A stretch of DNA of 64,000 nucleotides from Rhodobium orientis (lineage in GTDB: Bacteria > Pseudomonadota > Alphaproteobacteria > Rhizobiales > Rhodobiaceae), in the NCBI RefSeq assembly GCF_003258835.1, contig NZ_NPEV01000025.1, forward strand, positions 1-64,000, in the 5' to 3' direction. Below the pieces are notes generated by a model, which was given only the letters and a program-made list of their open reading frames with translations, searched no databases and had not been told where the DNA came from. Positions 6,591 through 32,596 of the stretch are shown piece after piece (the first letter of the stretch is position 1; every line of letters begins with the position of its first letter). A program made the position numbers and the translations under genes.

Positions 6591-6594
6591 GGCG

Positions 6595-9727: not shown

Positions 9728-9949
9728 GTATAAAACGGATGCGCATATGCCTTGTATCCGTTCAATATAATTGTTTACAACTATAAGATGCCATTTTTGG
9801 GTAAACAAAACATGTAAGAATGCAACTATCAGAAGTAAGATATATTTAAAGACTTAATCATAATATCAATTTGAGTCATTTTTACTGCGAAGAAGAACAA
9901 TGCCGATTAGAGTGAATGAATTGACAGAGCGTCAAACGAGGAGAACACC
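9728..9949. promoter_or_regulatory. AT-rich divergent promoter region
   Basis: This 222-base AT-rich gap lies between the leftward polysaccharide genes and the rightward sensor-kinase genes and must hold both promoters. An inverted repeat TTGAC-AGAGC-GTCAA sits at 9921-9935, 15 bases before the kinase ATG and just ahead of the AGGAG site. At that position it could be an operator or a small translation-control hairpin. No clear sigma-54 or sigma-70 pair could be assigned with confidence. Confidence 0.4.
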
Positions 9950-13099: not shown

Positions 13100-13100
13100 G

Positions 13101-13529: not shown

Positions 13530-13866
13530 ACTGATCAGCCGTCACTGCCTGACGCTGACGGTCGAGCTTGAGGACATCAGCCTGTGCCTCGCCCGGCTAG
13601 ATGCCCCGAACGCCCGTCCCGGTCCGGTCGTCGCCGAAGCGATCGGCCTGTCGCACAAGATCAAGGGCAGCAGCGGATCGCTCGGCTTTTCCAGCATCAG
13701 CGCCGCGGCCTCGCTGCTGGAACACTACCTGAAGGGCATCAACCCGGAGGCCGCGGCCTTGAGCAGAGAAGAGCAGGAGGGGATCCAGGACCACCTGTCC
13801 TGCCTCAACCGGCTGATCCACTCCGCCTCGCCGCAGGATTCCGCACTCTACAACGTGCAGATCTAG
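13510..13866 (+). CDS. Hpt (histidine phosphotransfer) domain protein
   Basis: A 118-residue, mostly helical protein with the Hpt signature LSHKIKGSSGSLGF; H49 is the expected phosphohistidine. It would pass phosphoryl groups between the receivers of the upstream hybrid kinase and the response regulators in this locus, including the receiver protein at 7860-9727. It overlaps the preceding regulator gene by 20 bases and is the last gene of the three-gene operon. The next gene, on the opposite strand, belongs to a different function. Confidence 0.88.
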   Translation: MQNELRELISRHCLTLTVELEDISLCLARLDAPNARPGPVVAEAIGLSHKIKGSSGSLGFSSISAAASLLEHYLKGINPEAAALSREEQEGIQDHLSCLNRLIHSASPQDSALYNVQI

Positions 13867-18322: not shown

Positions 18323-18820
18323 TCAAACCCCGCCGCTATGGACGATCTCGTAATAGATCGCCTCAAGCTCGTTCTTGTGCTTGGTCTCTTCGTTGGCAAG
18401 GAACAGGAAGAGGTCGTGCACCGGCCCCGGCGGCGTCCGTTCGGCAAGCGCCGTGTACTGCTCCATCGCCGCGTGCTCGCGCATTAACGCATATTGCAGC
18501 ACCGCCTGGTCGTCGGGGTTCTCGCCGAGGTCGGGCAAGTGCACGCAGTCGGAGAATTTGCGGTCGCTCGCCGGCCGCTCGATTTCATGCCTGACGAGAT
18601 CGCCGAGGTCGTCGCGTCTGGCGAGGTCGGCAAAGAGGTCGAAGTGCTCCTGCTCCTCCTCGGCCAGTTCCTCCACCAGATAGCGGATGTTCTTGGAGAC
18701 CTTCGGCACCAGGTCCTTGTAGAAATCCCGCGCCGTGCGCTCGAACTCCGTCGCAACGTCGAGAATGTCCTGGAGGTTGGTGAGCGGCTTCAGCCGCTGG
18801 TAGCCGCGTCCTTCCGGCAT
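18323..18820 (-). CDS. Ferritin-like (rubrerythrin-type) diiron protein
   Basis: A 165-residue four-helix protein with paired carboxylate/histidine motifs spaced as in ferritin-like diiron sites: TEFERTARDFY, EEEQEHFDLF, REHAAMEQY and NEETKHKNELE. It lacks the rubredoxin domain of classical rubrerythrins. Relatives scavenge peroxide or oxygen or store iron. It is the last gene of the complex-I-like operon: its ATG overlaps the stop of the ferredoxin/oxidoreductase gene (TGATG). It may protect or supply the many Fe-S clusters of that complex, which is inference. Confidence 0.78.
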   Translation of the reverse strand: MPEGRGYQRLKPLTNLQDILDVATEFERTARDFYKDLVPKVSKNIRYLVEELAEEEQEHFDLFADLARRDDLGDLVRHEIERPASDRKFSDCVHLPDLGENPDDQAVLQYALMREHAAMEQYTALAERTPPGPVHDLFLFLANEETKHKNELEAIYYEIVHSGGV

Positions 18821-20619
18821 CACGACAGCTCCTTTGCCTTCAACACCGCATCCATGCTCGCCGCCACCCGGTGGCCGTCGGCAACGGCGTGGACGACGTC
18901 CGGGCCGTTGACGCAGTCGCCGGCGGCCCACAGCCACGGCTCGGAGGTCCGCCCGTCGGCATCGACGGTGATGCGGCCGCGGTTCCATTCCAGCTTTTCG
19001 GTCAACGCCTCGCCGAGGAGAGCGACATCCGCCGCCTGGCCGATGGCCTCGATCACCATCGTACCTACGTGGATGCGCTCGTCGCCCTCGTCATAGGTCG
19101 GCGCAAAGCGGCCCTTGTCGTCGAAGATGGAAACGACCTTCCAGGTCTTCAGGCCCGTGACGTTGCCCACCTCGTCGACCAGCACCTCGCGCGGACCACG
19201 GGCATCAAAGATCTCGATCCCCTCCTCAAAGGATTCCTTGACCTCCTCCGGGTCGGCGAGGAAATGCGAAAAATCTTCCAGCGCCGTCACCGTCATGCCG
19301 ACTTCGCCATGGATCTGCTTCTGCAGCCGGGCGAGGCTGCGGGCGATGTCCATGGCGACGTTGCCGCCGCCGATAACGACGGCGGTCTTCGGCACGTCGA
19401 TGGTCTCGCCGTCGGTAATGGCGCGAAGGAGATCGACGGCCTTTGCCACCTTCGGATGGTCGGACCCCGGAATGCGGGTCGAGCGGCCGAGATGGAGGCC
19501 GATGGCGACCAGCACCGTGTCGAAGTCTTTCTCAAGCCCCGTCATAGTGACCTTGTCGCCGATGGGCGTGTCGCACTTGATATCGACACCCATCGCCCGG
19601 ATGACGTCGACATCGGCGTCGAGCGCGTCATAGGGCAGCCGGTACTCCGGAATGCCGTAGCGGGTCATGCCGCCGGCATGCTTTCGTGCCTCGAAGACGG
19701 TGACCGCATGGCCCATGCGGGCAAGGTCGAAGGCCGCGGTGAGCCCCGCCGGACCGGCGCCGACGACCGCCACCTTGTGGCCCGTCTCGCCCGCCGGCCG
19801 GCCGATGATGTCGACGTAGCGGTCGCGGTCGACCTGGTCGGTGATGTGCCGCTTCAGCCAGCGGATGGCGATGGGATCGCCCTCGTGGTGGACGGCGCAG
19901 ACGGTCTCGCATTTGTGGGTGCAGACCCGACCGCAGACCTGGCTGAACGGGTTGGTCTCGTAGAGAAGCTTGAGCCCCGCCTCATAGTCGCCCTCGCGGA
20001 TGGTGGCGATATAGTCCGGGATCGACATGTGCGCCGGGCAGGTGGCAACGCAGAGCCCGCAAGCAACGCAGCGCTCGGCCTCCGCCCGCGCTTCCTCGAC
20101 CGAGTAGCCGTCGACGATCTCCTCGAAATTCCCGATGCGCCGCTCCGGGTCCATCTCGCGCATGACGATGCGCTCCGGCGGCGTCAGCCGGTGGCCGTCC
20201 GGCCGGTGATAGCCGAGTTCGGCGTCGTCCCAGGACTTGTGGTCCACGCCCGGGACGAAGCGGAACGCGTCCGGGTCGCTGTCGATCCAGGTGTACTCGT
20301 TCGACATGGTCAGCGAGCCGGTCATGCAGACATCGACGCAGAGCGCGCACCAGCAGCAGCGGCCGTAGTCGATCTGCGGGCGCAGTCCGGAATCGCCTTC
20401 TTTGGTCTCGATGCCGTCCACCGGCACCATGTCGATGGCCGCGTTCTGGCAGATCGCCTCGCAGGTGCCGCAGCCGATGCATTCCGCGACATCGTTCTTG
20501 TGGAAGCCACGATAGCGCGCCGCGCCCGGCCGCTCGGTCAGCGGGTCGCGCACCGTCACCGGATCGCGAAAGAGGTTCTTCCAGGCGGTGAAGGGGGAAA
20601 GGACGTCCTGAACGGTCAT
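18820..20619 (-). CDS. NuoI-type ferredoxin domain fused to GltD-type NAD(P)H/FAD oxidoreductase
   Basis: A 599-residue fusion. Residues about 1-130 resemble NuoI/MbhN, with two [4Fe-4S] motifs: C47-C50-C53-C57 (CIGCGTCEAIC) and C88-C91-C94-C98 (CWCALCVDVC). Residues about 185-270 carry two more cysteine clusters as in GltD/NfnB (CVACGLCVATC and CGRVCTHKCETVC). FAD binding (VAVVGAGPAGLTAAFDLARM) and NAD(P) binding (AVVIGGGNVAMDIARSLARL) follow, then a C-terminal FAD motif WLWAAGDC. It would move electrons between NAD(P)H and the membrane-bound Nuo/Mbh-like module encoded upstream, replacing NuoEFG. It starts 13 bases after the NuoD-like gene and overlaps the ferritin-like gene. Confidence 0.85.
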   Translation of the reverse strand: MTVQDVLSPFTAWKNLFRDPVTVRDPLTERPGAARYRGFHKNDVAECIGCGTCEAICQNAAIDMVPVDGIETKEGDSGLRPQIDYGRCCWCALCVDVCMTGSLTMSNEYTWIDSDPDAFRFVPGVDHKSWDDAELGYHRPDGHRLTPPERIVMREMDPERRIGNFEEIVDGYSVEEARAEAERCVACGLCVATCPAHMSIPDYIATIREGDYEAGLKLLYETNPFSQVCGRVCTHKCETVCAVHHEGDPIAIRWLKRHITDQVDRDRYVDIIGRPAGETGHKVAVVGAGPAGLTAAFDLARMGHAVTVFEARKHAGGMTRYGIPEYRLPYDALDADVDVIRAMGVDIKCDTPIGDKVTMTGLEKDFDTVLVAIGLHLGRSTRIPGSDHPKVAKAVDLLRAITDGETIDVPKTAVVIGGGNVAMDIARSLARLQKQIHGEVGMTVTALEDFSHFLADPEEVKESFEEGIEIFDARGPREVLVDEVGNVTGLKTWKVVSIFDDKGRFAPTYDEGDERIHVGTMVIEAIGQAADVALLGEALTEKLEWNRGRITVDADGRTSEPWLWAAGDCVNGPDVVHAVADGHRVAASMDAVLKAKELS

Positions 20620-20632
20620 TTGATGCCCTCCC

Positions 20633-21811
20633 CTAGCGCTCGATTTCCGGCGGATAGGTGTGCAGCGACACCATCAGCCCGGCGACGTCGGAAATGTTGG
20701 CGTTGACGATGAGCTTTTCCAGCAGCGCCATGGCATGGGTGTAGGACGGCCCGCGCACATTGACCCGGCGCGGATAGCCGGAGCCGTCGGTGACGAGGTA
20801 GTAGCCGTATTCGCCGCGCGAGCACTCGCCGCGGATATAGGTCTCGCCTTCAGGGATCTTCCAGTTGAGAACGTTCGGGAGCCTGGTCATCACCGGCCCG
20901 TCCTTCGGCATTTTTTGGAGGATCTGCCGGATCAGGTCGATGGAGACATGGACGTCCCGGCGGCGCACATCGGCGCGGGTGTAGATATCGGACACTGATC
21001 CGGTGACCGGCTCGAAGTCGAGCTCGGGGTAGACCAGATAGGGCTGGTCCTTGCGCACGTCCTTGGCAACACCGGCAGCCCGGGCGTTCGGGCCGGTAAC
21101 GCCATAGGGCTCGATCATCTCCGGAGTGATCACTCCGACCCCGACCGTGCGCTTCTTGAAGACGGCATTGCAGTACATGACATCGTTGATGTCTTTCAGG
21201 GCCCGTTCGACCTCCCTGAGCGTTTCCTCCATTCGTACTGCAAAGCCTTCCGGCAGGCCGTCGCGGACGCCGCCGGGCAGGATGAACATGTGGTAGATGC
21301 GCGCCCCGGTCATCTCCTCGAACCGGTCGAGCATCAGGTCGCGGACATAGGTCGCCCACTGGCCGATGACGCCCATGCCAAAGCTTCCCGCCTGGCCGCC
21401 GAGATACATCATGTAGCTGTTGATGCGGCCCATCTCGAGAATGAGCGTGCGGATCCAATGCGCCCGTTCCGGAACTTCCAGGCCGGCCAGTTCCTCGACC
21501 GCGGCGGCGTAGCAATATTCGTTGAAATCCGGCTCCGGCACGCAGATGCGGCAGACGATGGGGAAGCACTGGATGAAGGTGCGCCGCTCCATCAGCTTCT
21601 CAAAGCCGCGGTGCAGATAGCCCACATGGGTCCGCCCCTCGACGACCTCGTCGCCGCATACGGTCAACTCCACCGACATGTTGCCGGTGATGCCGGGATG
21701 CTGCGGGCCCTGCCAGAGCTTCAGGTACTTGCCCGAGGCAAGATCGATGTCGAGGCTGCCGTCGGCCTTCGCCTCCGGATACTGGCTGCGGTCGAGTTCG
21801 AAAAGCGCCAT
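20633..21811 (-). CDS. NuoD/MbhL-like large catalytic subunit of a complex-I-like complex
   Basis: A 392-residue protein of the 49-kDa/hydrogenase large-subunit family: GPQHPGITGNMSVELTVCGD, VGYLHRGFEKLMERRTF, GRINSYMMYLGGQA, IYHMFILPGGVRDG and RGECSRGEYGYYLVTDGSG. It keeps one CXXC (C87-R-I-C90) where NiFe hydrogenases have their first metal-binding pair. NuoD lacks these cysteines, and this protein has no second CXXC: it ends AGLMVSLHTYPPEIER. A full NiFe site is therefore not expected. The pattern recalls archaeal MbxL/MbsL. It lies one base after the NuoC-like gene. Confidence 0.88.
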   Translation of the reverse strand: MALFELDRSQYPEAKADGSLDIDLASGKYLKLWQGPQHPGITGNMSVELTVCGDEVVEGRTHVGYLHRGFEKLMERRTFIQCFPIVCRICVPEPDFNEYCYAAAVEELAGLEVPERAHWIRTLILEMGRINSYMMYLGGQAGSFGMGVIGQWATYVRDLMLDRFEEMTGARIYHMFILPGGVRDGLPEGFAVRMEETLREVERALKDINDVMYCNAVFKKRTVGVGVITPEMIEPYGVTGPNARAAGVAKDVRKDQPYLVYPELDFEPVTGSVSDIYTRADVRRRDVHVSIDLIRQILQKMPKDGPVMTRLPNVLNWKIPEGETYIRGECSRGEYGYYLVTDGSGYPRRVNVRGPSYTHAMALLEKLIVNANISDVAGLMVSLHTYPPEIER

Positions 21812-21812
21812 C

Positions 21813-22346
21813 TCAGGAGGCCTCGCCCGGGTAGAGTTTGTCTTTCATGTGCGTCGCCGGATCGAAGGTCTCCCGGCCCGGCCGGTGGAAGTAGGTTTCC
21901 TCGGCGTATTTCTTGGTGTCGAAGTCGCGCCGGTAGGGCGGGATGTCGGTCCAGCCTTCCAGGATGAACTCCTCGTCGATGCGCGGGCTGCCCGGAAAGT
22001 CGATGCCGAACATCTCCTTCAGCTCGCGCTGATAGGTCGCCGCCGTCGGCCACAGGTCGTGGATGCCCGCCATCGTCGCCTCCTCGCGGTCGATGAAGAC
22101 GCGAAGGCCGATGTCGCGGGCTCTTGTGCGGTTGTGGACCAGATAGGTGAGCTGAAACTGCCCGCCCTCGATCCAGTCGACGGCCGTAAGCAACACCAGA
22201 TGAGTGAAGCCCTCCACGTCGCGCAAATGCGTGATGACGGCGCGAAGGAGATCCGGCGCAACCGAGACGAAGGCGAGGTCGTCGCGCTTTTCGGTGATGT
22301 CGCCGAGCGAAAACAGTGTGCCCAGCCGGTCGGTAAGGTCTTTCAT
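21813..22346 (-). CDS. NuoC/MbhK-like 30-kDa subunit
   Basis: A 177-residue protein with the 30-kDa subunit signature around ATYQRELKEMFGIDFPGSP (residues about 100-118) and an N-terminal alpha/beta domain. It has no cofactor and bridges the large catalytic subunit to the small Fe-S subunit in the peripheral arm. The C-terminus ends soon after YRRDFD, without a fusion to NuoD. It starts six bases after the NuoB-like stop codon, in the gene order B-C-D of classical complex I. Confidence 0.88.
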   Translation of the reverse strand: MKDLTDRLGTLFSLGDITEKRDDLAFVSVAPDLLRAVITHLRDVEGFTHLVLLTAVDWIEGGQFQLTYLVHNRTRARDIGLRVFIDREEATMAGIHDLWPTAATYQRELKEMFGIDFPGSPRIDEEFILEGWTDIPPYRRDFDTKKYAEETYFHRPGRETFDPATHMKDKLYPGEAS

Positions 22347-22352
22347 CGCATG

Positions 22353-23054
22353 CTACCAGCTATAGTCCGGCATATCCCAGTCGTGGATCACCTGTTTCTG
22401 GTTGGCCTTGTACCAGTCGAAGTTCTCCGCGTAGCGGTTGGCGCCCTCGCCCTTGCCGGCCTTGATGATCTTCTTCAGCTCCAAAAAGCCGGCGAGCAGG
22501 GCCTCCGGTCGCGGCATGCAGCCGGTGATGTAAAGGTCGACCGGCAGGTAGCGATCGAGCCGCTTGATGGTGTTGTAGCTGTCCCAGTACATGCCGCCAT
22601 TGATGGTGCAGGAGCCGAGCCCGACGACGTATTTCGGGTTCTGCATCTGCTCGTAGGAGCGGATCGCCCGCTTCAGCGTCTTCACCGAGAGATAGCCGGA
22701 GATGACGAAGAGGTTGGCCTGGCGCGGCGTCGGCCGCCACTGGATGCCGTAGCGATAGGCATCGAAGCGCGGCGTCATCAGCGGCCGCATCTCGATGGCG
22801 CCGCAGCCGGTGCCGAAGCCGAGGATCCAGAGCGATTCCGCCCGCGCCCAGTTGAAGAGGTCTTCGACGATCTTGGCATAGGCCGGCGGATGGACGCGCG
22901 GCGGCGCCTCGCAATAGTAGTCCTTCAGCGGCTCGACGGTGATTTCCTGCCCGTCCGGCGTTTTGACCACGCGCGGCTGCAGCTCTTGCTTGACCGGCCG
23001 CTCGGGCCGCTCCTTCAGGCGGTTCTTCTCGCCCGGCTTGACGAAGGCTTCCAT
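22353..23054 (-). CDS. NuoB/MbhJ-like small Fe-S subunit with an altered N2-type site
   Basis: A 233-residue protein of the 20-kDa PSST family: GFGTGCGAIEMRPLMTPRF, PTPRQANLFVISG, GLGSCTINGGMYWDSYN and VDLYITGCMPRPEALL. Complex I binds cluster N2 with two adjacent cysteines plus two later ones. Here the adjacent pair is C84-G85, so only three canonical ligands (C84, C149, C179) remain. C48 is the nearest other candidate. The N-terminal 65 residues are an extra charged extension. The gene sits between the NuoH-like and NuoC-like genes and starts ten bases after the former. Confidence 0.87.
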   Translation of the reverse strand: MEAFVKPGEKNRLKERPERPVKQELQPRVVKTPDGQEITVEPLKDYYCEAPPRVHPPAYAKIVEDLFNWARAESLWILGFGTGCGAIEMRPLMTPRFDAYRYGIQWRPTPRQANLFVISGYLSVKTLKRAIRSYEQMQNPKYVVGLGSCTINGGMYWDSYNTIKRLDRYLPVDLYITGCMPRPEALLAGFLELKKIIKAGKGEGANRYAENFDWYKANQKQVIHDWDMPDYSW

Positions 23055-23064
23055 CGTTGACCCC

Positions 23065-23970
23065 TCACACGATGAGAATGGCGGCGATGCCGATCGGCAC
23101 GGCCCAGACCATGAACCAGCGGATCGACTGCTCGACCCGGAAACGCGGAAAAACGACGCCGACCAGCACCGAGACCATGTAGATCGCGAAGACTTTCACG
23201 AAAAACACCGGCCAGTTCGACGCGCCGCCGAAGAAGAGGTTCATGAAGATGACGATCTTGGCGATCGGAAAGATCACCCGGTTGGTCTGCATCAGCGCCA
23301 GATAGGCCGAGTGGTACTCGGTCGGCGGCCCGATCGGGATTTCCTGCGGCGCCAGCACCACGTCGAAGGGCGGGCGCATCATGGAGCCGAGGAAGGAGAG
23401 CATGGCGGCAATCACGGCGAGCGGATTGGTGAAGAGCGTCCAGTGCAGGAACCCGCCCTGCTGGGCCGCGACGATCTCCGTGATCGACAGCGTCTGGTAC
23501 TGCACGGCGATGGCAAAGACCGCGAGCGCCAGCGGCAGTTCGGCCATCGTCACCTGCGACAGGCCGCGGGAGACGCCGATCGCCGAATAGGGATGGCCGC
23601 TCTCGCCGGCGCCGAGCGCCATGCCGAGCGAGCCGAAGAAGATGAAATAGAGCGCAAGGATCAAATCGCCGGCGAACGACATGTTGGAGAACATCGCCGA
23701 GCCATAGATCGTCGGCACGAACAGCAAGAGCCCGACGCCGCCGGTCAACCGGAACACCGGTCCGAGATAGAACATGAAGCCGTGGGTGATGGCGCTACGG
23801 AGCGCGTAGTTCTTCAGAAGGTCGATGTAGTTCTGGTAGATCGGGATGCCGTAGCGCCCGCCGACCCGTGCCGCGATCTTCTGCATCAGGGCAGTGAGCA
23901 ACAGCCCGTAATTGACGACGATGAAGAGCGTCAAAAGGGCGAAGGGGATCTTCATCCACTCGAAGGTCAT
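23065..23970 (-). CDS. NuoH/MbhM-like membrane subunit
   Basis: A 301-residue membrane protein with about eight helices. It has the NuoH-family loops RVGGRYGIPIYQNYIDLLKN (first cytoplasmic loop), GESGHPYSAIGVSRGLSQ, EIPIGPPTEYHSAYLAL and RPPFDVVLAPQE. It anchors the peripheral arm to the membrane and links quinone-site or cluster redox changes to ion translocation. Its ATG overlaps the stop codon of the double antiporter-module gene (ATGA). It is shorter and less acidic in the E-channel loop than NuoH of ordinary complex I, as in hydrogenase-type relatives. Confidence 0.88.
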   Translation of the reverse strand: MTFEWMKIPFALLTLFIVVNYGLLLTALMQKIAARVGGRYGIPIYQNYIDLLKNYALRSAITHGFMFYLGPVFRLTGGVGLLLFVPTIYGSAMFSNMSFAGDLILALYFIFFGSLGMALGAGESGHPYSAIGVSRGLSQVTMAELPLALAVFAIAVQYQTLSITEIVAAQQGGFLHWTLFTNPLAVIAAMLSFLGSMMRPPFDVVLAPQEIPIGPPTEYHSAYLALMQTNRVIFPIAKIVIFMNLFFGGASNWPVFFVKVFAIYMVSVLVGVVFPRFRVEQSIRWFMVWAVPIGIAAILIV

Positions 23971-26900
23971 GGCCGCACCCCCATGGAGAGCAGGTAGACG
24001 ATGACGACGAAGCCGACGAAGTGGAAGGCGTAGACCTGGCCGTCACCGGTATAGAAGCGTCGCGTGAGGTCCGCGGTGCCGTGCAGCGTGCCGGTGATGC
24101 CGCCCCAGAAGCGGGTGACCAGCGGTTCGGTCAGGAAGCCCAGCGCCTTGCGGTAGGGCGCAAAGAAATTCCAGGCGAAATGGGTGGTCTCGGGGCGGTA
24201 GGGCCGTTCCGCGGCAAAGACGATGTTGAACTGCTTCACCTTCTGGGCCCGGTGGTTGAGGAAGACGAGCCAGGCGAGCAGCACGACGAAGATGACGGCG
24301 ACGACGATCATGATGGAGACCGGGCTCCAGTAGCCGTACTCGCTGGTGATCGTCAGGCCCTCCCAGGCAAGGCCGTGGCTCGGGAAGAACGAGCCGAGAT
24401 AGGCATCGACGCGGCGGAGCGCCAGGCCCGGGAAGATCGCGAACCCGATCAGGAAGGCGACGAACAGCATCTGCGGCAGGACGATCCAGAACGGGGCTTC
24501 CTTCAGGCGCCGGTGCTCGTCCTTGAGCTGGCCGAGGAAGATCGTGTGGATCAGCCGGAAGAGGTAGAGGAAGGCGATCGGGCCGGAGAGGAAGATGATC
24601 ACCATCGGCAGCCGGGCGTCCGAACTCATGATCGCGTTGTAGAAGATCCACCGGCCGCCGAAGCCTGAGAGCGGCGGCACGCCGGACATGGCGATGATGC
24701 CGACGAGGACGGCGATGAAGGAGAGCGGCATCAGGGTGATGAGCCCGCCCATCCGGTACATCAGCTTGGTGCCGGTGCGCTTTGCGATGCCGCCGACGGA
24801 GAGGAACAGCATCGATTTGTAGACATAGTGGTTGATGACGAACATCAGCGCCATCAGCCAGCCGAGATGGTTCATCAGGGCAAGGCCGAAGAGCGCATAG
24901 CCCATCTGGCCGATGGAGGAATAGGCAAGCAGCCGCTTGGCGTCCTCCTGGAAGATCGCCATGAGGTTGCCGAGGAGCGCGGAGAGCGCGCCGATCCAGA
25001 GCAGCACATAGGTGAGCTCGACACCGTAAAACTGGGTCTTGCCCATGGTCATAAGCAAGATGAAGAAACCGTAGAGCCCGGCCTTCAAAAGGATGCCGGA
25101 GACCATCGGCGAGACGTCCGTCTCCGCCTCCGCATGGGCGCCCGGCAGCCAGATATGGAGCCCGATCGCCGCCGTCTTGGTCATGAAGCCGGCGGCAAGG
25201 AGGATGAAGACGTAAGGAGCAAAGGTCGCCGAGACGTCGGCAAGGCCTTGGAGGGCGAAGGGCTGGGTGCCTTGCGCGGCGACGGCAAAGCCGGCGAGGA
25301 TCGCAAAGGCGCCGCCGAGGGAAAAGACGATGTAGGAGAGCGCGTGCGGTTCCGACTTCTTGCCCCTGAGGATCAGGAAATAGGAGCCGAGGGTGAGGAT
25401 TTCCCAGGCCGCAAAGAAGCCGAACGAGTCTTCCGCGACGATCAGCATGGCGAGCCCGGCATACATCAGCATGGCGGACGGGTAGAAGCCGATGCGGCGG
25501 CCGTGCGTTTCGAAGCTCGCCAGCAAAATGACCGCGCCGCCGATCAGGATGATGACGCCGAAGATAAGCCTCAGCGGGTCGTAACCCGGATAGCTGACCA
25601 GGAACCAGGCGACGAGACCGGCAATCGCAATCGCGTTCTTGACCTTCGCCGGTAGCCAGTCGAGGGCAAGGAAGGAAAGCGCAAAGAGCAGCGGCAGCGC
25701 CGTCAGCACATTGCCGAGACCGGAGAGGTCGCCCCAGAGGTAACCGAGCCCCCAGCCGGCGGCGACGGCGATGAGCACCACGCCGATCTTGTGCAGCGAC
25801 AGATCGACCTGCTGCGCCGGTGCCTCGCGCTTCAGGGCATAGCCGAACCACCTGAACAGGTAGCCGGCCTCGATGAGGGCGCCGAGGAGGATGAGCCCGA
25901 GCACCAGATAGCGGCCGTCGGCGGCGAGCGCATGGGCGAGCTGCCACTTCGCATAGAAGCCCGGGAAGGGCGGCAGGCCGACGAGCATCGCAACGAAGGA
26001 GGCAAAGGCGAACAGCAGCACCGGGTGGTGCTTCAGCTCGGCCCAGGACGTCAGCGCCCGCTCCGGCAGGGTGCCGGAGAGCCAGTAGAGCCCGGCCTTG
26101 GCGACGGCATGCGCCAGAAGGATGCCGCCGGCGATGAAGAGATACTGGTCGCCCAGAAGGTCCTTCTGGCCGATGACGGCGAAGACGAGCCCGATCTGGG
26201 CAACGGACGAATAGCCGAGCAGCCGCCGGTCGCTGGTTTGCGACAGCGCCAGCACATTGGCGGCAACGAAGGTGGAAAGCCCGATGGCGGTTGCCACCGG
26301 CAGCCAGGCCGGCCCGCCGATGAGGAGCGCCTTGTCGACCGCGTAGAGCGATGCCGCGCCGGCAGCGGCGGAAAAGATCGCGGAGAACGCCGGATGGGCG
26401 GACTCGTAGATATCGAGCGCCCAGCCATTCGCCGGGAACGGCTTCAACTCGGCAACGAGGGCGATAAAGAGAAGGAAGAAGGCGAGCGCACCGGACTTCA
26501 GGAGCACCGTCGAATTGCCGGCGGCGGACGCAGCCGCGAGGTCGTCGATATTGAGCGACCCGCCGGCGTGGTAGAGGAAGATGATGCCGATGAGGAGCAG
26601 GATCGAGATCACCTGCGAGACTATCAAATATTTGAAGCCGGCAGACAGCGCCCGCGCGTCGTCGGACAGGAGCACCAGGCCGCCGGTGGAGATGACGGCA
26701 AGCTCGAAGAAGACGAAGAGGTTGAAGACGTCGCGGGTGAGCACGATGCCGGCGAACGACATGGTGGCGATGAGGAGCACCGCCATCGACCGCCGCCCGA
26801 GCCGCATCATCGGCTCTTTGAGGAACACGGCCGCAAGGAGGCCCGTGACCGTGATCAGCAGCGTCAGCGCGGCTTCCGCCAGCCCCATGCGCAGATTGAT

Positions 26901-27110
26901 GGCAAAGGGCGGCTTCGTGCCGGCGGTGAAGATCTCGACCGGGCCGGTCGAGCCGGAGGACAGGGCGAACAGCCAGTCGGCCGCGATCCAGCTCATGACG
27001 GCGAGCGCGACAAGCGTGATCGCGTAGGCCGTAGCGCGCAGCCGATTGTCGAGGAAGGCCAGCAGGAACGCGGTGCCGAGGCCTATGGCGATGATCAGGA
27101 TCGGGCTCAC
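23967..27110 (-). CDS. Fused double MrpD/NuoM-type antiporter subunit
   Basis: A 1047-residue polytopic membrane protein containing two proton-pump modules in tandem. Module 1 covers about residues 1-500 (TRDVFNLFVFFELAVISTGG, ELKPFPANGWALDIYESAHP, RLLGYSSVAQIG). Module 2 covers about 520-960 (FFAAWEILTLGSYFLILRG, IGLHIWLPGAHAEAETDVSP, LLKAGLYGFF, RLLAYSSIGQMGYALFG, MSGVPPLSGFGG). A C-terminal tail of ~90 residues with one more helix follows. Usual MrpD/NuoM subunits are about 480-500 residues. Archaeal Mbx/MBS complexes have two such subunits encoded separately. The start is a GTG overlapping the MnhC-like stop; the end overlaps the NuoH-like start. Confidence 0.85.
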   Translation of the reverse strand: MSPILIIAIGLGTAFLLAFLDNRLRATAYAITLVALAVMSWIAADWLFALSSGSTGPVEIFTAGTKPPFAINLRMGLAEAALTLLITVTGLLAAVFLKEPMMRLGRRSMAVLLIATMSFAGIVLTRDVFNLFVFFELAVISTGGLVLLSDDARALSAGFKYLIVSQVISILLLIGIIFLYHAGGSLNIDDLAAASAAGNSTVLLKSGALAFFLLFIALVAELKPFPANGWALDIYESAHPAFSAIFSAAAGAASLYAVDKALLIGGPAWLPVATAIGLSTFVAANVLALSQTSDRRLLGYSSVAQIGLVFAVIGQKDLLGDQYLFIAGGILLAHAVAKAGLYWLSGTLPERALTSWAELKHHPVLLFAFASFVAMLVGLPPFPGFYAKWQLAHALAADGRYLVLGLILLGALIEAGYLFRWFGYALKREAPAQQVDLSLHKIGVVLIAVAAGWGLGYLWGDLSGLGNVLTALPLLFALSFLALDWLPAKVKNAIAIAGLVAWFLVSYPGYDPLRLIFGVIILIGGAVILLASFETHGRRIGFYPSAMLMYAGLAMLIVAEDSFGFFAAWEILTLGSYFLILRGKKSEPHALSYIVFSLGGAFAILAGFAVAAQGTQPFALQGLADVSATFAPYVFILLAAGFMTKTAAIGLHIWLPGAHAEAETDVSPMVSGILLKAGLYGFFILLMTMGKTQFYGVELTYVLLWIGALSALLGNLMAIFQEDAKRLLAYSSIGQMGYALFGLALMNHLGWLMALMFVINHYVYKSMLFLSVGGIAKRTGTKLMYRMGGLITLMPLSFIAVLVGIIAMSGVPPLSGFGGRWIFYNAIMSSDARLPMVIIFLSGPIAFLYLFRLIHTIFLGQLKDEHRRLKEAPFWIVLPQMLFVAFLIGFAIFPGLALRRVDAYLGSFFPSHGLAWEGLTITSEYGYWSPVSIMIVVAVIFVVLLAWLVFLNHRAQKVKQFNIVFAAERPYRPETTHFAWNFFAPYRKALGFLTEPLVTRFWGGITGTLHGTADLTRRFYTGDGQVYAFHFVGFVVIVYLLSMGVRP

Positions 27111-27463
27111 CCTTTTAGCTCCGTGAATTTGGAGATATCGAGCGTGCGTTTGGTCTCGTAGAGCTTGAAGGCGTAGGCGAGCATCAGCGCAGTGATGCCG
27201 AGGCCGATGACGATCGCCGTCAGCACCAGGGCCTGCGGCACCGGATCGATGATCCGCTCGGCGGCGTCGGCCACCGGCACGGCCGCGTCGAGGATCGGCG
27301 CGGTGCGCCCGGCGAGGTAGCCGACCGAGACCAGCACCAGGTTGACGCCGGTGCTGGCGATAGTGAAGGCGACGATCATCCTCAGGATGTTGCGGTTGGT
27401 GAGCGCGCCGTAGAGCCCCATCAGGATCAGCAGGAACCCGGCCGCCATGGAAACGAGGATCAT
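27107..27463 (-). CDS. mnhC: Na+/H+ antiporter MnhC/NuoK-like subunit
   Basis: A 118-residue protein with three transmembrane helices and the family element DPVPQALVLTAIVIGLGITAL, characteristic of MrpC/MnhC and NuoK. The conserved glutamates of NuoK are not evident, which is normal for MrpC. It forms part of the membrane arm next to the MrpD-type modules. It overlaps both neighbours by four bases, so translation of the whole operon appears coupled. Confidence 0.9.
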   Translation of the reverse strand: MILVSMAAGFLLILMGLYGALTNRNILRMIVAFTIASTGVNLVLVSVGYLAGRTAPILDAAVPVADAAERIIDPVPQALVLTAIVIGLGITALMLAYAFKLYETKRTLDISKFTELKG

Positions 27464-28164
27464 TGCGGCTTCTCCGTCTCGGAAAGATTGACCAGCATGG
27501 AGCTGAACTCCGCCCCGACCTTAAGGCCGACCAGCGAATAGATGATCGGGATGGCGCCGGCCGAGAACAGCGATCCGAAATCGCCGAGCGGCAGGATGCG
27601 GTTGTCGAGGAAGCCGCCGGCGAGCACCAGGCCGAGGACGCCGATGGCCACGTAGAAGAGCCCCGACAGCGACTCCACCCGCGCGATCATGCGGTGGCCG
27701 AAGCGACGCAGGGGGTCGGTGAGGAGCAGCAAGAGCATCGACGAAGCGACGATGGCACCGCCCTGGAAGCCGCCGCCCGGCGTCAGATGGCCGTTGACGA
27801 AGACATAGACGCCGAAGAGGACGATCAACGGCACCAACAGCCGGCTGCCGGTATGCAGCAACTCGCCGGAGGGCGGCAGCACCCGCTGCGGCGTGCCCGG
27901 CTGATGGCGTGATTGAGCGAGTACCAGCGCGACGATCGCCGCCGTCAGGAACAGCACCGTCACCTCGCCGAGGGTATCGAGGCCGCGATAGGTGACGATG
28001 ATCGCGGTGACGATGTTGGCGGCGCCGAGGTCATTGGCCGTGTTCTCCGCGTAGTAGCGCGCCGTCAGGTTCAGCTCCGTGTCGGGCGAATAACCCAGCA
28101 GCAGCCCGGCGAACACCGTGCCGAGGCCGAGCAAGAAGAAAACAGCGAGGGCGTGCCTAATCAT
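27460..28164 (-). CDS. mnhB: MbhE-like domain fused to MnhB Na+/H+ antiporter subunit
   Basis: A 234-residue membrane protein in two parts. Residues about 1-90 resemble MbhE or the MrpA C-terminal region (ENTANDLGAANIVTAIIVTY, RGLDTLGEVTVLF). Residues about 100-230 are the MnhB domain (VNGHLTPGGGFQGGAIVAS). In archaeal Mbh-type operons these are separate mbhE and mbhF genes. In Mrp systems the first part belongs to MrpA. The fusion keeps the usual order. It overlaps the MnhC-like gene by four bases and the MbhD-like gene by eight. Confidence 0.87.
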   Translation of the reverse strand: MIRHALAVFFLLGLGTVFAGLLLGYSPDTELNLTARYYAENTANDLGAANIVTAIIVTYRGLDTLGEVTVLFLTAAIVALVLAQSRHQPGTPQRVLPPSGELLHTGSRLLVPLIVLFGVYVFVNGHLTPGGGFQGGAIVASSMLLLLLTDPLRRFGHRMIARVESLSGLFYVAIGVLGLVLAGGFLDNRILPLGDFGSLFSAGAIPIIYSLVGLKVGAEFSSMLVNLSETEKPQ

Positions 28165-28417
28165 GGTCCTGCTCCCCGCCGCCGACGCGTCCCAGCACGA
28201 AGAAGAAGAGGAAGGTGGTGAGCCCGCTGCCGATCGCCGCTTCGGTCATTGCAACGTCCGGCGCGGCAAGGATCAGAAACAGCACCGAGGCGAACAGCGA
28301 GACGGCGCCGGCCGACAGGATCGCCACCGGCAGGCTGTCGACGCGGATGGCAACGAACGCCGCCCCGATGGTGGCGAGCGCCACGACGACGCTCATGACG
28401 GGCAGGAACGCGCTCAT
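28157..28417 (-). CDS. MbhD-like (DUF4040) membrane subunit
   Basis: An 86-residue protein with two to three helices and the motif AAPDVAMTEAAIGSGLTTFLF, typical of the MbhD/DUF4040 domain that also occurs in the MrpA C-terminal region. It is a small membrane-arm subunit of Mrp- and Mbh-type complexes. It overlaps the MnhG gene upstream (ATGA) and the MbhE/MnhB gene downstream. The C-terminus is short and acidic. Confidence 0.85.
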   Translation of the reverse strand: MSAFLPVMSVVVALATIGAAFVAIRVDSLPVAILSAGAVSLFASVLFLILAAPDVAMTEAAIGSGLTTFLFFFVLGRVGGGEQDHD

Positions 28418-28743
28418 GCCGTCTCTCCCGTATCGTCGGCGAGCCGGTCGACCTGAACCTCATGCGTCTGCGCCACCCTCGTGCGATGCGCCGCGCGCGC
28501 CAGCACCTGGGATGACAGCGGATTGGTGAACAGCAGAAACAGGCCGATGAGGAGCAGCTTCAGCGTCCAGGCCGGCTCAAGGAGGGCGACGCCGGCAAGG
28601 GTCAGGAGCGTGCCGAGGGTCGTCGTCTTGGTGCCGGCCTGGATGCGGTTGAAGGTGTCCGGCATGCGGTAGAGGCCGAGCCCGCCGAGAAGCAGGAACA
28701 CGGTGCCGGCAACGAGCACGAGGGCGCCGAGAAGGTCGAGCAT
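28414..28743 (-). CDS. mnhG: Na+/H+ antiporter subunit MnhG
   Basis: A 109-residue protein with three helices and the MnhG signature GGLGLYRMPDTFNRIQAGTK followed by TTTLGTLLTLAG. The ATG at 28743 overlaps the MnhF stop codon (TGATG); a GTG one codon earlier is possible. The hydrophilic C-terminus of about 30 residues (RTRVAQTHEVQVDRLADD) is longer than the membrane core needs. It is part of the ion-translocating arm. Confidence 0.9.
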   Translation of the reverse strand: MLDLLGALVLVAGTVFLLLGGLGLYRMPDTFNRIQAGTKTTTLGTLLTLAGVALLEPAWTLKLLLIGLFLLFTNPLSSQVLARAAHRTRVAQTHEVQVDRLADDTGETA

Positions 28744-29003
28744 CACGACGCTCCTTCCAGGTAGCGGGCGATGACGATGACGCCGAGGAAGGAGAGAAGC
28801 GCGTAGACCAGCGCCACGTCGAGATAGATGACCCGGCCTTCGACCAGCGCCACCAGCACCATGCCGGTGATGGCGATGATGGTGAGAACGTCGAAGGCGA
28901 TGACCCTGTCGACGGCGCGCGGTCCCTTGACGAAGCGGAACAGCGCCAGGAGGAAGGCCGCGCCGGCGATGACACCGGCGACGGTGATCAGGACCTCAAC
29001 CAT
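28743..29003 (-). CDS. mnhF: Na+/H+ antiporter subunit MnhF
   Basis: An 86-residue three-helix protein with the MnhF motif RFVKGPRAVDRVIAFDVLTI. The start at 29003 is chosen because the longer frame adds 19 basic residues lying within the upstream MnhE gene. MnhE and MnhF overlap by eight bases. MnhF is essential for assembly in studied Mrp systems; here it is part of the Nuo/Mbh-like operon. Confidence 0.9.
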   Translation of the reverse strand: MVEVLITVAGVIAGAAFLLALFRFVKGPRAVDRVIAFDVLTIIAITGMVLVALVEGRVIYLDVALVYALLSFLGVIVIARYLEGAS

Positions 29004-29493
29004 ACATGACCTCAAGATAGCGCTCGAAGCCGGCGACGATCTTTGCCGTCGCCCCCTCATTGTCGGTGGCGTCGACCGTCACCCAGTGCACGTAGAGCCA
29101 TTCGCCGGTGAGCTCGACGGAGAGTGTGCCCGGCGTCAGGGTGATGGAATTGGCGAGCAGCAGCCGGCCCATCGGGCTTTTCAGCTTCGTCCTCACCTTG
29201 ACGATGCCCGGCTTGATCGGCAGCTCCGGCGACAAGACGATGCGGGCAAGCGCGATGTTCGAGCGCACGAGCTCCCGCAGGAAATAGAAAACGAAGAGGA
29301 TGGAGGCGGTGAAGGAGCGCGGCACCGGCTGAAAGTGCGACAGGAACGACAGCCCGTCGGTGTAGAAGAGGACGATGGCAATCGCAGCCGCGGCGCCGAC
29401 GGCGAGCGTTCCGGGCGCCAGCGTTCCGTTCAGAAGAATCCAGAACAGGAGCAGGGTCGCGAAAAGCTCGGCCGAATTGCGCACCCTGCCCAT
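28996..29493 (-). CDS. mnhE: Na+/H+ antiporter subunit MnhE, first gene of the complex-I-like operon
   Basis: A 165-residue protein with two N-terminal helices and a cytoplasmic C-terminal domain carrying the MnhE signature LLANSITLTPGTLSVE and LYVHWVTVDATDNEGA. The ATG at 29493 sits eight bases after an AGGGAGA site. It is the promoter-proximal gene of the twelve-gene leftward operon that ends with the ferritin-like gene, so expression of the complex depends on signals in 29494-29794. Confidence 0.9.
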   Translation of the reverse strand: MGRVRNSAELFATLLLFWILLNGTLAPGTLAVGAAAAIAIVLFYTDGLSFLSHFQPVPRSFTASILFVFYFLRELVRSNIALARIVLSPELPIKPGIVKVRTKLKSPMGRLLLANSITLTPGTLSVELTGEWLYVHWVTVDATDNEGATAKIVAGFERYLEVMYG

Positions 29494-29794: not shown

Positions 29795-31081
29795 TCAGCG
29801 CCCGAACCCGGAGGTCGCGGGCAGCCAGGTGGCAAGTTCGGGAAAGGCGATCAGGCAGGCCAGCCCGCCGATCATCAGGGCGACGAAGGGCGCCGCGCCG
29901 CGCACGACATCGGAGAGCGGCGCGTCGGTGATGCCCTTGATGACGAAGAGGTTCATGCCGACCGGCGGGGTTATCAGCGCCAGCTCCAGATTGATCATCA
30001 GGAGAACCCCGTACCAGATCGGGTCGATGCCGAGCTCGTGCATGGTCGGCAACAGGATCGGCGTGGTGATCAGGATGATGGAGATCGTCTCCAGGAACAT
30101 GCCGAGGACGAAGACGAGGCCCATCACCGCGACGATGAAGCCGATCGGCCCGAGCCCCAGATTGGCGACCATCTCCGTGACGCCGACCGGCAGGCGGATG
30201 ATGGTGATGGCATGGCCGAACATCGCCGCCCCGGCGATGATCATGAACACCATCACCGAGGTGCGCATGGTCTGCTGCGCGCAGGCCCAGAGATCGGAAA
30301 TGCCGAAATTGCGGTAGGCAAGGACGGCAACGGCAAGCGCATAGACACAGCCGGCGGCGGCGGCTTCCGAAGCGGTAAAGATGCCGAAATAGATGCCGCC
30401 CATGACGACGGGGGGCGCCATCAGCGCCCAAATCGAGCGCTTCGTCGCTGCCACCATCTTTGAGAACGCCGCCATTTCCGGCGCCTTGACGCCGGCGCGC
30501 CGCGTCGCCTGGACGACGCAGAAGATCGAAAACACCAGCGCCATCAGGACGCCGGGGATGATGCCGGCAAGGAACAGCGCCCCGATCGAGACCTCCGAGA
30601 CGATGGCATAGAGGATCATCGGCCCGGACGGCGGGATGAGGATGCCGAGCGTGCCGCCGGCGGCGACGACGCCGAGCGCATCGCGCGTCGGATAGCCGAA
30701 CCGCTTCATCTGCGGCACGGCGCTTGAGCCGACGGAAAGGGCGGTGGCGACCGAGGAGCCGGAAATCGCGGCGAAGATGGTGCAGGACAGCACGGTGGCG
30801 ACACCGAGCCCGCCGCGGATATGGCCGACGACGGTGTGCGCGAACTCGTAGAGGTCGTCGATCACCTTCGCCCGGATCATGATCTGCGCCATCAGCACGA
30901 ACAGCGGGATGGCGGTCAAAAGGTCCTTGTTGAGGTGCGAAAAGACCGTGTCGGCGACCGCCGAGACGTCGCCCTCGAAGATCAGCAGGATCGCCGTCGC
31001 CATCAGGCCGAGGGCGGCGAAGATGGGAATGCCGATGAGAAGCAGGAGGATCAGCCCGGCAAAGACGACAACCGCGGTCAT
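29795..31081 (-). CDS. TRAP transporter large permease (DctM family)
   Basis: A 428-residue membrane protein with about 12 helices and DctM-family motifs: PLFVLMAQIMIRAKV, ISGSSVATALSVGSSAVPQM, GTLGILIPPSGPMILYAIV and LITPPVGMNLFVIKGI. It is the secondary transport subunit that moves a carboxylate with sodium or proton, fed by the periplasmic binding protein. Its ATG overlaps the stop of the small permease gene (ATGA). It is the last gene of the CoA-transferase/lyase/TRAP operon. Confidence 0.92.
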   Translation of the reverse strand: MTAVVVFAGLILLLLIGIPIFAALGLMATAILLIFEGDVSAVADTVFSHLNKDLLTAIPLFVLMAQIMIRAKVIDDLYEFAHTVVGHIRGGLGVATVLSCTIFAAISGSSVATALSVGSSAVPQMKRFGYPTRDALGVVAAGGTLGILIPPSGPMILYAIVSEVSIGALFLAGIIPGVLMALVFSIFCVVQATRRAGVKAPEMAAFSKMVAATKRSIWALMAPPVVMGGIYFGIFTASEAAAAGCVYALAVAVLAYRNFGISDLWACAQQTMRTSVMVFMIIAGAAMFGHAITIIRLPVGVTEMVANLGLGPIGFIVAVMGLVFVLGMFLETISIILITTPILLPTMHELGIDPIWYGVLLMINLELALITPPVGMNLFVIKGITDAPLSDVVRGAAPFVALMIGGLACLIAFPELATWLPATSGFGR

Positions 31082-31608
31082 TCCGCGTCCTTCCCGGCAA
31101 GGTGGCGGATGAGGATGGCGAGCGCGACGAGGATGAGGAGCCCGGCGCCGATCAGCATCGGGAGCTGCGGGATCCAGGTCGCCACTTCCAGATAGCCCGG
31201 TGAATAGGAGCCGAAGTCATAGGCAAAGGAGATGGAGTCCCAGGTGCTGACGGCGAGCACGACCGCAAAGCCGATGACGGCGAGATTGGCGACGACGGCA
31301 AGCAGCCGCTTCAGCCCTGGCCCGACCCGGTCGGTGACGAGGTCGATGGCGATGTGCTCGCCGTGCCGGAGCGTTTCCGCCGCCCCCAGCATGACCAGCG
31401 CGACCAAGAGGTAGCCGGCGAGTTCGTCGCCCCATTTCAGCGGTGTATCGAGGAAATAGCGCTGCAGGATCGCATAGACGACCAGCACCATGACGGCCAG
31501 CACGAGCGCGGAGGCAACGATGCCGCCGAGCCAGGCCGGCCAGGTCAGGAAGCCTTTCGGCAAAGAGGGGGCGTCCTGCGCCCCCTCGCCGTGTTCGTCG
31601 TCGGACAT
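31078..31608 (-). CDS. TRAP transporter small permease (DctQ family)
   Basis: A 176-residue membrane protein with four helices and the DctQ motifs VVYAILQRYFLDTPLKWGDELAGYLLV and RHGEHIAIDLV, the latter in the second-third helix loop. A hydrophilic acidic N-terminus of about 25 residues precedes the first helix. It pairs with the large permease subunit. It is seven bases downstream of the binding-protein gene. Confidence 0.9.
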   Translation of the reverse strand: MSDDEHGEGAQDAPSLPKGFLTWPAWLGGIVASALVLAVMVLVVYAILQRYFLDTPLKWGDELAGYLLVALVMLGAAETLRHGEHIAIDLVTDRVGPGLKRLLAVVANLAVIGFAVVLAVSTWDSISFAYDFGSYSPGYLEVATWIPQLPMLIGAGLLILVALAILIRHLAGKDAE

Positions 31609-31615
31609 GGAGCCC

Positions 31616-32596
31616 CTAAAGCTTGCCGATCAGCTCGATCAGCTTCTTGGCGTCGTCATTGTCGGCGAACTTCTCGTCGAAGGCCGGCCGCATGGCGGCT
31701 TCCAGCGCGTCGATCTCTTCCTCGGTCGCGATGTGCACCTCGGCGCCCTTTTCGCGGAGCTGGTCCGGCGCCTTGGAGGCGGCTTCCGTGGAGGCCTCGA
31801 TGGCCCATTCCGCCGCCTTGTCGCCGGCCGCCTTCAGCGCCGCCTTGTTGGCGTCGGAAAGCCCGTCATAGAATTTCGGGTTCACGTAGCCGTGGAAATA
31901 GACCGAGATCACCGGCAGCACGACGAAGTGGTCCTGCACCTCGTAATATTTGCGCGAGACGGCGGCGGCAATGTCGGTGAGGCCGGCATCGATGACGCCG
32001 GTGGCGAGCGCCTGGTAGACCTTGGAGCCGGACATGGAGCTGGGCGCTGCGCCGAGCGCTTCCAGCGAGGCGTTGAAGGACGGCTCCAGGCCGCGGATCT
32101 TCACGCCGTCGAAGTCTTCAGGCTTCAAGAGGTATTTGTCGTTGGAAGTGAACACCGAGGTATTGGTGGTGAACAGCCAGACGACGTTCTTCAGGCCCTT
32201 GTCCTCAAGCTTTTCATCGAGGAACGCGGCGGCTTCCGACTCCGGCCATTTGCGCCAGATGTCGAGATCGCTGAAGGCGAACGGCGCCATGGTGACGTTC
32301 ATGATCGGCAGGGTCTTGCCCCACTGGAAGTTCACCGAGAACGCGCATTCCACGTCGCCCTTGGCGGTCGCGACGATGTTCTCGCGCGCGCCGACGAGGC
32401 TGCTGGCGCCGAATATCTGCACATCGATATCGCCGTTCGACTGCTTCTCGACCTCTTCGGCCCAGCGGTCGATGACCTTGGCGATGTGGTGGCCCGGCGG
32501 AAGCTGGTGGCTGCAGCGCATGGTCTCCGCCGCCATCGTCGCCGTCGACGTGGCGGCGAGCATGCAGGCGGCGGCGAGAATGTGTGACAGCTTCAT
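31616..32596 (-). CDS. TRAP transporter periplasmic substrate-binding protein (DctP family)
   Basis: A 326-residue exported protein. The signal peptide (KLSHILAAACMLAATSTATMA) is followed by the DctP fold: HQLPPGHHIAKVIDRWAEEV, GKTLPIMNVTMAPFAF, VKIRGLEPSFNASLEALGA and VYQALATGVIDAGLTDI. The arginine in KIRGLE normally makes the salt bridge to a ligand carboxylate, so the substrate is probably a carboxylic acid. The neighbouring CoA-transferase and HMG-CoA-lyase family genes suggest a branched hydroxy dicarboxylate such as 3-hydroxy-3-methylglutarate, which is inference. Confidence 0.9.
   Translation of the reverse strand: MKLSHILAAACMLAATSTATMAAETMRCSHQLPPGHHIAKVIDRWAEEVEKQSNGDIDVQIFGASSLVGARENIVATAKGDVECAFSVNFQWGKTLPIMNVTMAPFAFSDLDIWRKWPESEAAAFLDEKLEDKGLKNVVWLFTTNTSVFTSNDKYLLKPEDFDGVKIRGLEPSFNASLEALGAAPSSMSGSKVYQALATGVIDAGLTDIAAAVSRKYYEVQDHFVVLPVISVYFHGYVNPKFYDGLSDANKAALKAAGDKAAEWAIEASTEAASKAPDQLREKGAEVHIATEEEIDALEAAMRPAFDEKFADNDDAKKLIELIGKL

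Follow-up and report, generated by a model that had tools for sequence, protein, structure and literature searches.

What a bacterium may do with a second, Mrp-linked relative of complex I is the question raised by a gene cluster of Rhodobium orientis. It lies in a stretch of 64,000 nt (hereafter, the window; G000:C162:1-64000) of a 5.19-Mb genome in 244 contigs, and consists of 13 minus-strand genes running from position 29493 to position 18323. A first-pass annotation of the window had described it as an Mbh/Mbx-like respiratory complex, separate from the complex I of the cell. Judged by its sequence, the cluster is a variant of the MBS/MBX enzymes in the sulfur-reductase branch of the complex I family, and it probably encodes an ion-coupled NADH:sulfane-sulfur oxidoreductase that works beside reverse-Dsr/Sox sulfur oxidation. 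The complex may form an ion-pumping link between sulfur and the NADH of the cell. The features that carry this assignment are its clade, its gene order, the ligands of its catalytic cluster, the loss of quinone and NiFe residues, the fusion of its MbsN-like subunit, and its co-occurrence with dsrA.

Gene content of the cluster

28996..29493, minus strand: mbsA-like gene (MnhE/MrpE) of the distal membrane arm; Pfam PF01899, E 1.5e-39
28743..29003, minus strand: mbsB-like gene (MrpF); Pfam PF04066
28414..28746, minus strand: mbsC-like gene (MnhG); Pfam PF03334
28157..28417, minus strand: mbsD-like gene (MbhD); Pfam PF13244
27460..28164, minus strand: mbsE-like gene, MbhE and MnhB in a single chain as in MBS; full-length match to 6u8y chain E, 168 bits versus 63 for MbhF
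27107..27463, minus strand: mbsG-like gene (MnhC/NuoK family); Pfam PF00420
23967..27110, minus strand: fused MbsH-MbsH' antiporter-like subunits, 1047 aa; 6u8y chain H on residues 5-263 and chain X on 444-1045
23065..23970, minus strand: mbsM-like membrane anchor (NuoH family, NADHdh); 6u8y chain M, 134 bits, next match 59
22353..23054, minus strand: mbsJ-like gene (NuoB family, Oxidored_q6) with a three-Cys proximal [4Fe-4S] cluster; 6u8y chain J, 223 bits
21813..22346, minus strand: mbsK-like gene (NuoC, 30-kDa family); Pfam PF00329
20633..21811, minus strand: mbsL-like gene (NuoD, 49-kDa family) with the motif RICVPEPD; 6u8y chain L, 323 bits, residues and tree
18820..20619, minus strand: mbsN-like gene (NuoI) fused to a GltD-type Fe-S flavoprotein; NF010590, 884 bits, 6u8y chain N and motif
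18323..18823, minus strand: ferritin-like di-iron protein; Pfam Rubrerythrin, 3e-11, and Glu/ExxH residues

Adjacent genes overlap by 4 or 8 bases or are separated by 1-13 bases, in agreement with the first-pass annotation, whose internal starts were used for the coordinates of the MnhE, MrpF, and ferritin-like genes. All genes that it had named are present on the minus strand, and its list, headed as twelve genes, counts 13. Scans with Pfam and NCBIfam models back each family assigned to the cluster. The 1047-aa protein contains two Proton_antipo_M stretches (Pfam), and its match to MbsH' extends to its last residue. The NuoE/F/G module is indeed not in the operon; the reported absence of NuoJ, K, L, and N is partly a matter of naming, since the MnhC protein matches the NuoK family and the double MrpD protein matches the NuoL/M/N families (NCBIfam).

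Assignment to the MBS/MBX branch

The complete subunit order A-B-C-D-E-G-H-H'-M-J-K-L-N, as given for MBS in the subunit table of PMC8415708, is found in the cluster, with H and H' fused. Among PDB chains, the NuoD-like protein matches MbsL with 323 bits, Nqo4 with 215, and MbhL with 141, and the NuoB-like protein matches MbsJ with 223 bits, the best complex I chain with 138, and MbhJ with 97.

Relatives were collected by a scan of species-level genomes, in which the best 80 of at least 565 were kept; together with three further loci they form the set of 83 loci considered below, and the spread derived from it is a lower bound skewed to near relatives. In a quick IQ-TREE phylogeny of MbsL-type proteins (93 rows, i.e., 83 loci, the window, and nine references), the bacterial family is joined with MbsL of Pyrococcus furiosus (SH-aLRT 99), and five complex I and three NiFe rows fall apart from the MBS family. 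The window falls in a clade of 22 rows (support 100) together with G001, a member of the same genus at 97% identity, and G015 at 85%; this clade comprises proteobacterial loci and one locus of unstated phylum. The tree of MbsJ-type proteins agrees, joining the family and MbsJ with a support of 94; both trees gave long-branch warnings and contain a single archaeal MBS row each.

The second NuoD of the genome (C233:112064-112888) is encoded within a separate nuo cluster, in which Pfam recognizes NuoA, E, F, G, J, K, L, and M, next to a 4Fe-4S candidate for NuoI and NuoB-/NuoH-like genes. The proposed separation from the complex I of the cell is thereby borne out, and both observations on which the first-pass annotation had made it depend were checked: the NuoB- and NuoD-like proteins branch outside complex I, and another nuo cluster is present. 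Among plasmid records, the NuoD-like protein had 245 matches, all below 60% identity; the 40 listed have approximately 33-36% identity and are nuoD where annotated.

Three other identities were considered and rejected. An ordinary complex I disagrees with the lack of NuoE/F/G in the operon, of the quinone residues, and of the NuoB tandem Cys, with the separate clade, and with the existence of a nuo cluster proper. For MBH or another group 4 [NiFe] hydrogenase, the four NiFe Cys are not intact, the small subunit has no CxxC, and the MBH scores are lower. A stand-alone Mrp antiporter would have no redox arm, whereas this operon encodes NuoB, C, D, H, and NuoI-GltD. Because the NiFe ligands are lost and the MBH scores are far lower, the label "Mbh/Mbx-like" is narrowed to MBS/MBX, retaining its second half only. 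The cluster is called a variant of MBS/MBX because its MbsH lacks K250 while MbsH' keeps E128, K217, and K248.

Catalytic site and electron donor

Residue counts were taken over the 84 MbsL-type rows and 75 MbsJ rows, skipping loci in which the gene was not in reach. The site of Nqo4 H38 is occupied by Thr in 83 rows and by Glu in one, and that of Nqo4 Y87 by Val in 84/84. The second NiFe Cys is replaced by Glu or Asp (84/84) and the fourth by Glu (82/82). The MbsJ ligands are present as Cys at C28 (73/73), C93 (75/75), and C123 (75/75) in the rows with letters at these sites, and all are kept in the window; the complete three-Cys proximal cluster is found in 73/73 rows with letters at all three sites. 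Neither the CC pair of complex I nor the CxxC of hydrogenases occurs in any of the 75 MbsJ rows. Position 25 of MbsJ is Gly in 71 rows, Ala in one, and Cys in one (L009). More variable are the two further Cys of MbsL, C85 (Cys in 65 rows, including the window, Ala in 17, Ser in two) and C385 (Cys in 29/82, Tyr in 53/82).

According to the account in PMC7684303, the three-Cys proximal cluster of P. furiosus MBS is the catalytic site that cleaves polysulfide, the C25A and C85A/C385A enzymes have comparable activity, and the residual Cys C85/C385 of MbsL are dispensable. Given the retained cluster ligands and the lost quinone residues, the catalytic site is taken to be MBS-like, with the quinone site gone. 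The same features point to S-S bonds as the acceptor, which the first-pass annotation had left open.

The NuoI-GltD fusion protein matches 6u8y chain N on residues 6-114 and GltD-type chains on residues 150-596 approximately. It is near the NCBIfam family NF010590 (PRK13984, "putative oxidoreductase"; 884 bits, below the cut-off of 946), a family of NuoI-GltD proteins itself without assigned function. The two parts are fused in 77 of the 83 loci, the open reading frame (ORF) being cut, split, or missing in the remaining six, and the 17 cluster-type Cys are kept in 74/74 loci. Among 75 rows, the NAD(P) site is either Arg-Arg (28 rows) or Leu/Met-Glu (47 rows, mostly with a short insert), and the form switches three times on the MbsL tree. 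By the rule for Rossmann folds, Arg-Arg is the NADPH-type form and Leu/Met-Glu the NADH-type form. The window has Leu-Glu, and when the fused protein is modelled with AlphaFold (mean pLDDT 79.8), the Glu is placed just past a strand at 442-445. Because this Glu stands where the NADPH-type form has Arg-Arg, NADH is the predicted donor of the complex. The link to an NAD(P)H flavoprotein drawn in the first-pass annotation is upheld.

Pump residues of the membrane arm

In MbsH, E138 and E219 are kept in 60/60 rows each and K393 in 60/61, whereas K250 is lost in 60/61. In MbsH', E128 and K217 (60/60 each), K248 (58/61), and H340 (60/61) are kept, and H336 is replaced in most rows. The anchor MbsM keeps E203 and E211 (71/71) but not E104 or E193. 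From these residues we infer that pumping is weaker or relies on a single pump, as would fit a small driving force.

The exception with respect to K250 is L009 (G002:C1:20001-39999; operon at approximately 1872-13542), a locus from the genus of the window. It represents a deeper second form of the operon, with 45% identity in MbsL, in which MbsH and MbsH' are split and both MbsJ C25 and MbsH K250 are kept.

Distribution and co-occurrence with sulfur oxidation

All 13 markers are found in one order and on one strand in 48 of the 83 loci, and 31 loci end at contig borders with nothing contradicting this order. The four odd loci are L049 and L068, which lack the upstream genes despite available sequence, L062, which lacks mbsJ, and L089 with a swapped match. 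The conservation of marker order is far beyond chance, and the operon is conserved across phyla rather than peculiar to one bacterium. Among the best 80 relatives, the carriers from Pseudomonadota include Sedimenticola, Thiothrix, Thiosymbion, Lamprocystis, Rhodoferax, Tepidiphilus, Celeribacter, Tropicimonas, Aliiruegeria, and Magnetococcales; the other carriers belong to Bacteroidota, Spirochaetota, Cloacimonadota, Neomarinimicrobiota, Chlorobiota, Calditrichota, Acidobacteriota, and others. The complex was found in 9 of 347 genomes drawn from the order of the window, in 1/337 from its class, and in 6/299 from its phylum, the genome of the window being included in each draw. In four genomes from other phyla (G418, G421, G422, and G426; loci L028, L043, L047, and L056), the matches to the 49-kDa subunit all fall in one gene, and MBX may be the sole complex-I-like enzyme there.

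The genome of the window carries, in one run on contig C116, dsrA, dsrB, a dsrH-like gene, a dsrC-family gene, a dsrM-like gene (below the cut-off), dsrK, and dsrO, with a GltD-type gene in the position of dsrL. Among the genomes with the operon, SoxB was found above the family cut-off in 22 of the 26 genomes of the proteobacterial set versus none of the 21 others; this set includes L013, whose phylum is unstated, and L025 was left out of the SoxB count. DsrA matches were obtained for 23/28 genomes of the proteobacterial set (22 above the cut-off and one partial), and either dsrA or soxB is present in 27/28, the exception being the L013 genome. Among proteobacteria, the complex was found mainly in sulfur oxidizers.

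The dsrA counts cover the 28 genomes of the proteobacterial set and the order of the window. In the 347-genome draw from this order, all nine genomes with the complex have dsrA, compared with 17 of 134 genomes without it, namely, 9/57 relatives and 8/77 genomes chosen for soxB (the search of the soxB-chosen batch covered 80 of 93 intended genomes). The one-sided Fisher test gives p = 6e-8, with finer kinship ignored, and a hand tally at the genus level gives 5/5 versus 11/78 (p = 1.5e-4).

Proposed function and competing explanations

By analogy with P. furiosus MBS, NADH would reduce the FAD of the GltD module, from which electrons would pass through the Fe-S clusters of GltD and NuoI and reach the proximal [4Fe-4S] cluster in the NuoB-like protein. 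The one iron of this cluster that has no Cys ligand would then cleave (or form) an S-S bond, either in polysulfide or in a different carrier of sulfane sulfur. Coupling would proceed from the MbsM anchor through the MbsH/H' pair to the Mrp-type arm, with translocation of Na+ or H+. In this way, the complex would connect the NAD(H) pool with the sulfane sulfur of the cytoplasm by electron exchange, alongside the reverse-Dsr/Sox system. The potentials of NADH (-320 mV) and H2S (-270 mV), as listed in PMC4287430, are close, and the complex should therefore be reversible, its direction being set by the levels of sulfide and NADH. In the forward direction, stored sulfur might be reduced under anoxia or activated for the Dsr pathway; the sulfur of A. 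vinosum is thought to be reductively activated, as stated in PMC3368242. In the backward direction, NADH would be made from sulfide. A more specific version is put forward tentatively, as a possibility that we would not favor: in sulfur oxidizers the complex runs backward, the ion gradient driving electrons from sulfide or hydropersulfide to NAD+, with S atoms joined at the site-differentiated cluster and the resulting sulfane sulfur passed to reverse Dsr, and in anaerobes of other phyla the NADH and NADPH forms run forward as sulfur respiration.

Several observations weigh against an NADH:sulfane-sulfur oxidoreductase tied to sulfur oxidation. MbsH K250 is lost in the window, and MbsL C385 is replaced by Tyr. 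The assignment of NADH depends on a single motif, for which the DsrL of the same genome is unusable as a control. Five of the 28 carriers have no dsrA match (L024, L027, and L038 from Roseobacteraceae, as well as L013 and L049), and 17 of the 26 dsrA genomes seen in the order are without the complex. The link to soxB is weak, both in the order (6/9 versus 111/338) and in the phylum draw (3/6 versus 39/293), with p = 0.04 in each case and kinship ignored. Clustering of flanking ORFs and inspection of the flanks of 14 loci revealed no recognizable shared sulfur gene beside the operon, and co-occurrence with dsrA is not function. In the literature, no biochemical study of a GltD-fused MBX was found, although reviews of MBX may mention bacterial homologs.

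The closest competitor keeps the enzyme and replaces inorganic polysulfide by an organic or protein-bound S-S compound, such as a glutathione-type disulfide or the DsrC trisulfide. This is possible, but rather unlikely in our view: P. furiosus MBS was assayed with dimethyltrisulfide and the mechanism was extended by its authors to organic disulfides, and dsrA and dsrC are both present in the genome of the window, whereas the active-site chamber described for MBS in the same source (PMC7684303) is hydrophobic and located at the membrane, which is better suited to small sulfanes than to a protein. Alternatively, the complex may center on ferredoxin or NADPH, its flavin module confurcating or bifurcating NAD(P)H and ferredoxin onto the sulfur site or making low-potential ferredoxin. 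GltD-type modules of Nfn enzymes are among the best PDB matches, the Arg-Arg site occurs in 28/75 family members, and the archaeal MBS is reported to use ferredoxin (PMC7684303). We nonetheless consider this option unlikely, as the flavin module on MbsN would occupy the docking place of ferredoxin, the operon has no partner subunit for bifurcation, and the window carries the Leu-Glu site.

A second complex I, i.e., an alternative ion-pumping NADH:quinone oxidoreductase with another NADH module, would account for the homology of all core subunits and for the NCBIfam call of the NuoD-like protein as subunit D (395 versus a cut-off of 360). It is nevertheless quite improbable with both quinone headgroup residues replaced in 84/84 rows, the tandem Cys absent, a separate clade, and a nuo cluster already in the genome. 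Even less credible, to the point that it can hardly be entertained, is an Mrp Na+/H+ antiporter in essence, with the redox genes secondary: the Mrp-like arm is complete, and an "MrpEFGBBCDD complex" is listed as an antiporter in PMC4287430, but the operon retains the genes for NuoB, C, D, H, and NuoI-GltD, in an unchanged order and with all cluster Cys. The NADH:sulfane-sulfur oxidoreductase remains the explanation that we consider probable.

Ferritin-like gene and neighboring genes

A ferritin-like gene follows the operon in 35 of the 67 loci with enough sequence, a count that omits ten loci short of downstream sequence and six without the fused ORF. Its Glu and ExxH residues are invariant in 23 aligned rows. 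A fold search with a model of the protein gave no match at E<=0.001, the top rows above this threshold being Dps proteins and a protein from P. furiosus annotated as hypothetical. One might guess that the protein protects or re-loads the labile iron of the catalytic cluster. It also has a weak match (E 2e-4) to the ferritin part of NF009413, a UbiB/GltD/ferritin fusion; GltD and ferritin-like domains are therefore joined elsewhere too.

Beside ferritin-like genes, the flanks contain, mostly in Bacteroidota, dihydroorotate-dehydrogenase-like and CRP-like genes, both named by eye. The former lies near the NuoI-GltD gene in L062 (13044-14027) and 11 further loci from Bacteroidota and Chlorobiota. 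Dihydropyrimidine dehydrogenase has a GltD-plus-dihydroorotate-dehydrogenase make-up, which this arrangement recalls. The CRP-like regulator was observed in L057 (1243-2085), with relatives in 15 other loci, mostly in Bacteroidota.

In the window, TRAP transporter genes (29795-32596) are located upstream on the same strand, separated from the cluster by a gap of approximately 300 bases in which a promoter/terminator scan gave no match; a convergent RpiR-type gene is located downstream. A NuoF-type protein with Complex1_51K and NADH_4Fe-4S domains is encoded 22 kb away on the opposite strand (52001-53623, plus). Its neighbors are a LysR gene (50647-51534, plus) and a long ORF of 1036 aa (53407-56517, plus), a group that we take to resemble an NAD-dependent formate dehydrogenase cluster. 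Other plus-strand genes encode a DNA photolyase (47080-48546) and a sigma-54 response regulator adjoining a histidine kinase (57412-60981). Pfam matches were obtained for 1/10 minus-strand ORFs to the right of 33 kb and for 7/9 plus-strand ORFs.

Comparison with known systems and significance

The cluster resembles P. furiosus MBS (PDB 6u8y) in its subunit set, the MbsE fusion, the two antiporter subunits, the three-Cys proximal cluster, and the loss of the quinone residues and of the second and fourth NiFe Cys. Unlike in P. furiosus MBS, MbsN bears an NAD(P)H module of the GltD type, MbsH and MbsH' form one chain, three residues (MbsH K250, MbsL C385, and MbsJ C25) are lost, the operon is followed by a ferritin-like gene, and the host, a bacterium of mesophilic type, carries dsr and sox genes. 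Complex I shares homologous NuoB, C, D, H, I, and antiporter subunits, and MBH and formate hydrogenlyase (group 4 [NiFe]) share the architecture, with a NiFe site only there. The MBX of Thermotoga maritima, to which the cluster is likened by description only, is presented in PMC9431562 as a 13-subunit homolog of MBS that is ferredoxin-dependent, belongs to an anaerobe without quinone, and shows a 4.36-fold increase of mbxA with S0. Among symbionts, that of Riftia has a putative Mrp-Mbx described as co-expressed with the reductive tricarboxylic acid cycle (PMC11636981), and an "MrpEFGBBCDD complex" is given among the antiporters of the Solemya velum symbiont, whose genome has dsr and sox genes (PMC4287430). 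The gene letters of the latter fit the present operon, the likeness being one of letters only. Both hosts are sulfur oxidizers, as here, and the descriptions in these two sources contain no donor module. Thus, the MBS/MBX kind of complex is known; new here are the pyridine-nucleotide-linked variant, its two donor forms, the lost pump lysine, and the tie to reverse Dsr.

These results bear on how sulfur oxidizers connect NAD(H) with sulfane sulfur, whether stored or cytoplasmic, and on how they make NADH cheaply. A self-contained MBS that is linked to NAD(H) and co-occurs with dsrA offers a defined set of genes for the study of these questions, and it raises the question of whether the "Mrp antiporter" operons of sulfur-oxidizing symbionts are respiratory enzymes. 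With its two donor forms and its missing pump lysine, the variant offers a natural test of pumping stoichiometry versus driving force in the complex I family. If the backward reaction proved true, the complex would be a sulfide:NAD+ reductase, through which a lithotroph would obtain NADH over approximately 50 mV instead of several hundred mV from the quinone pool.

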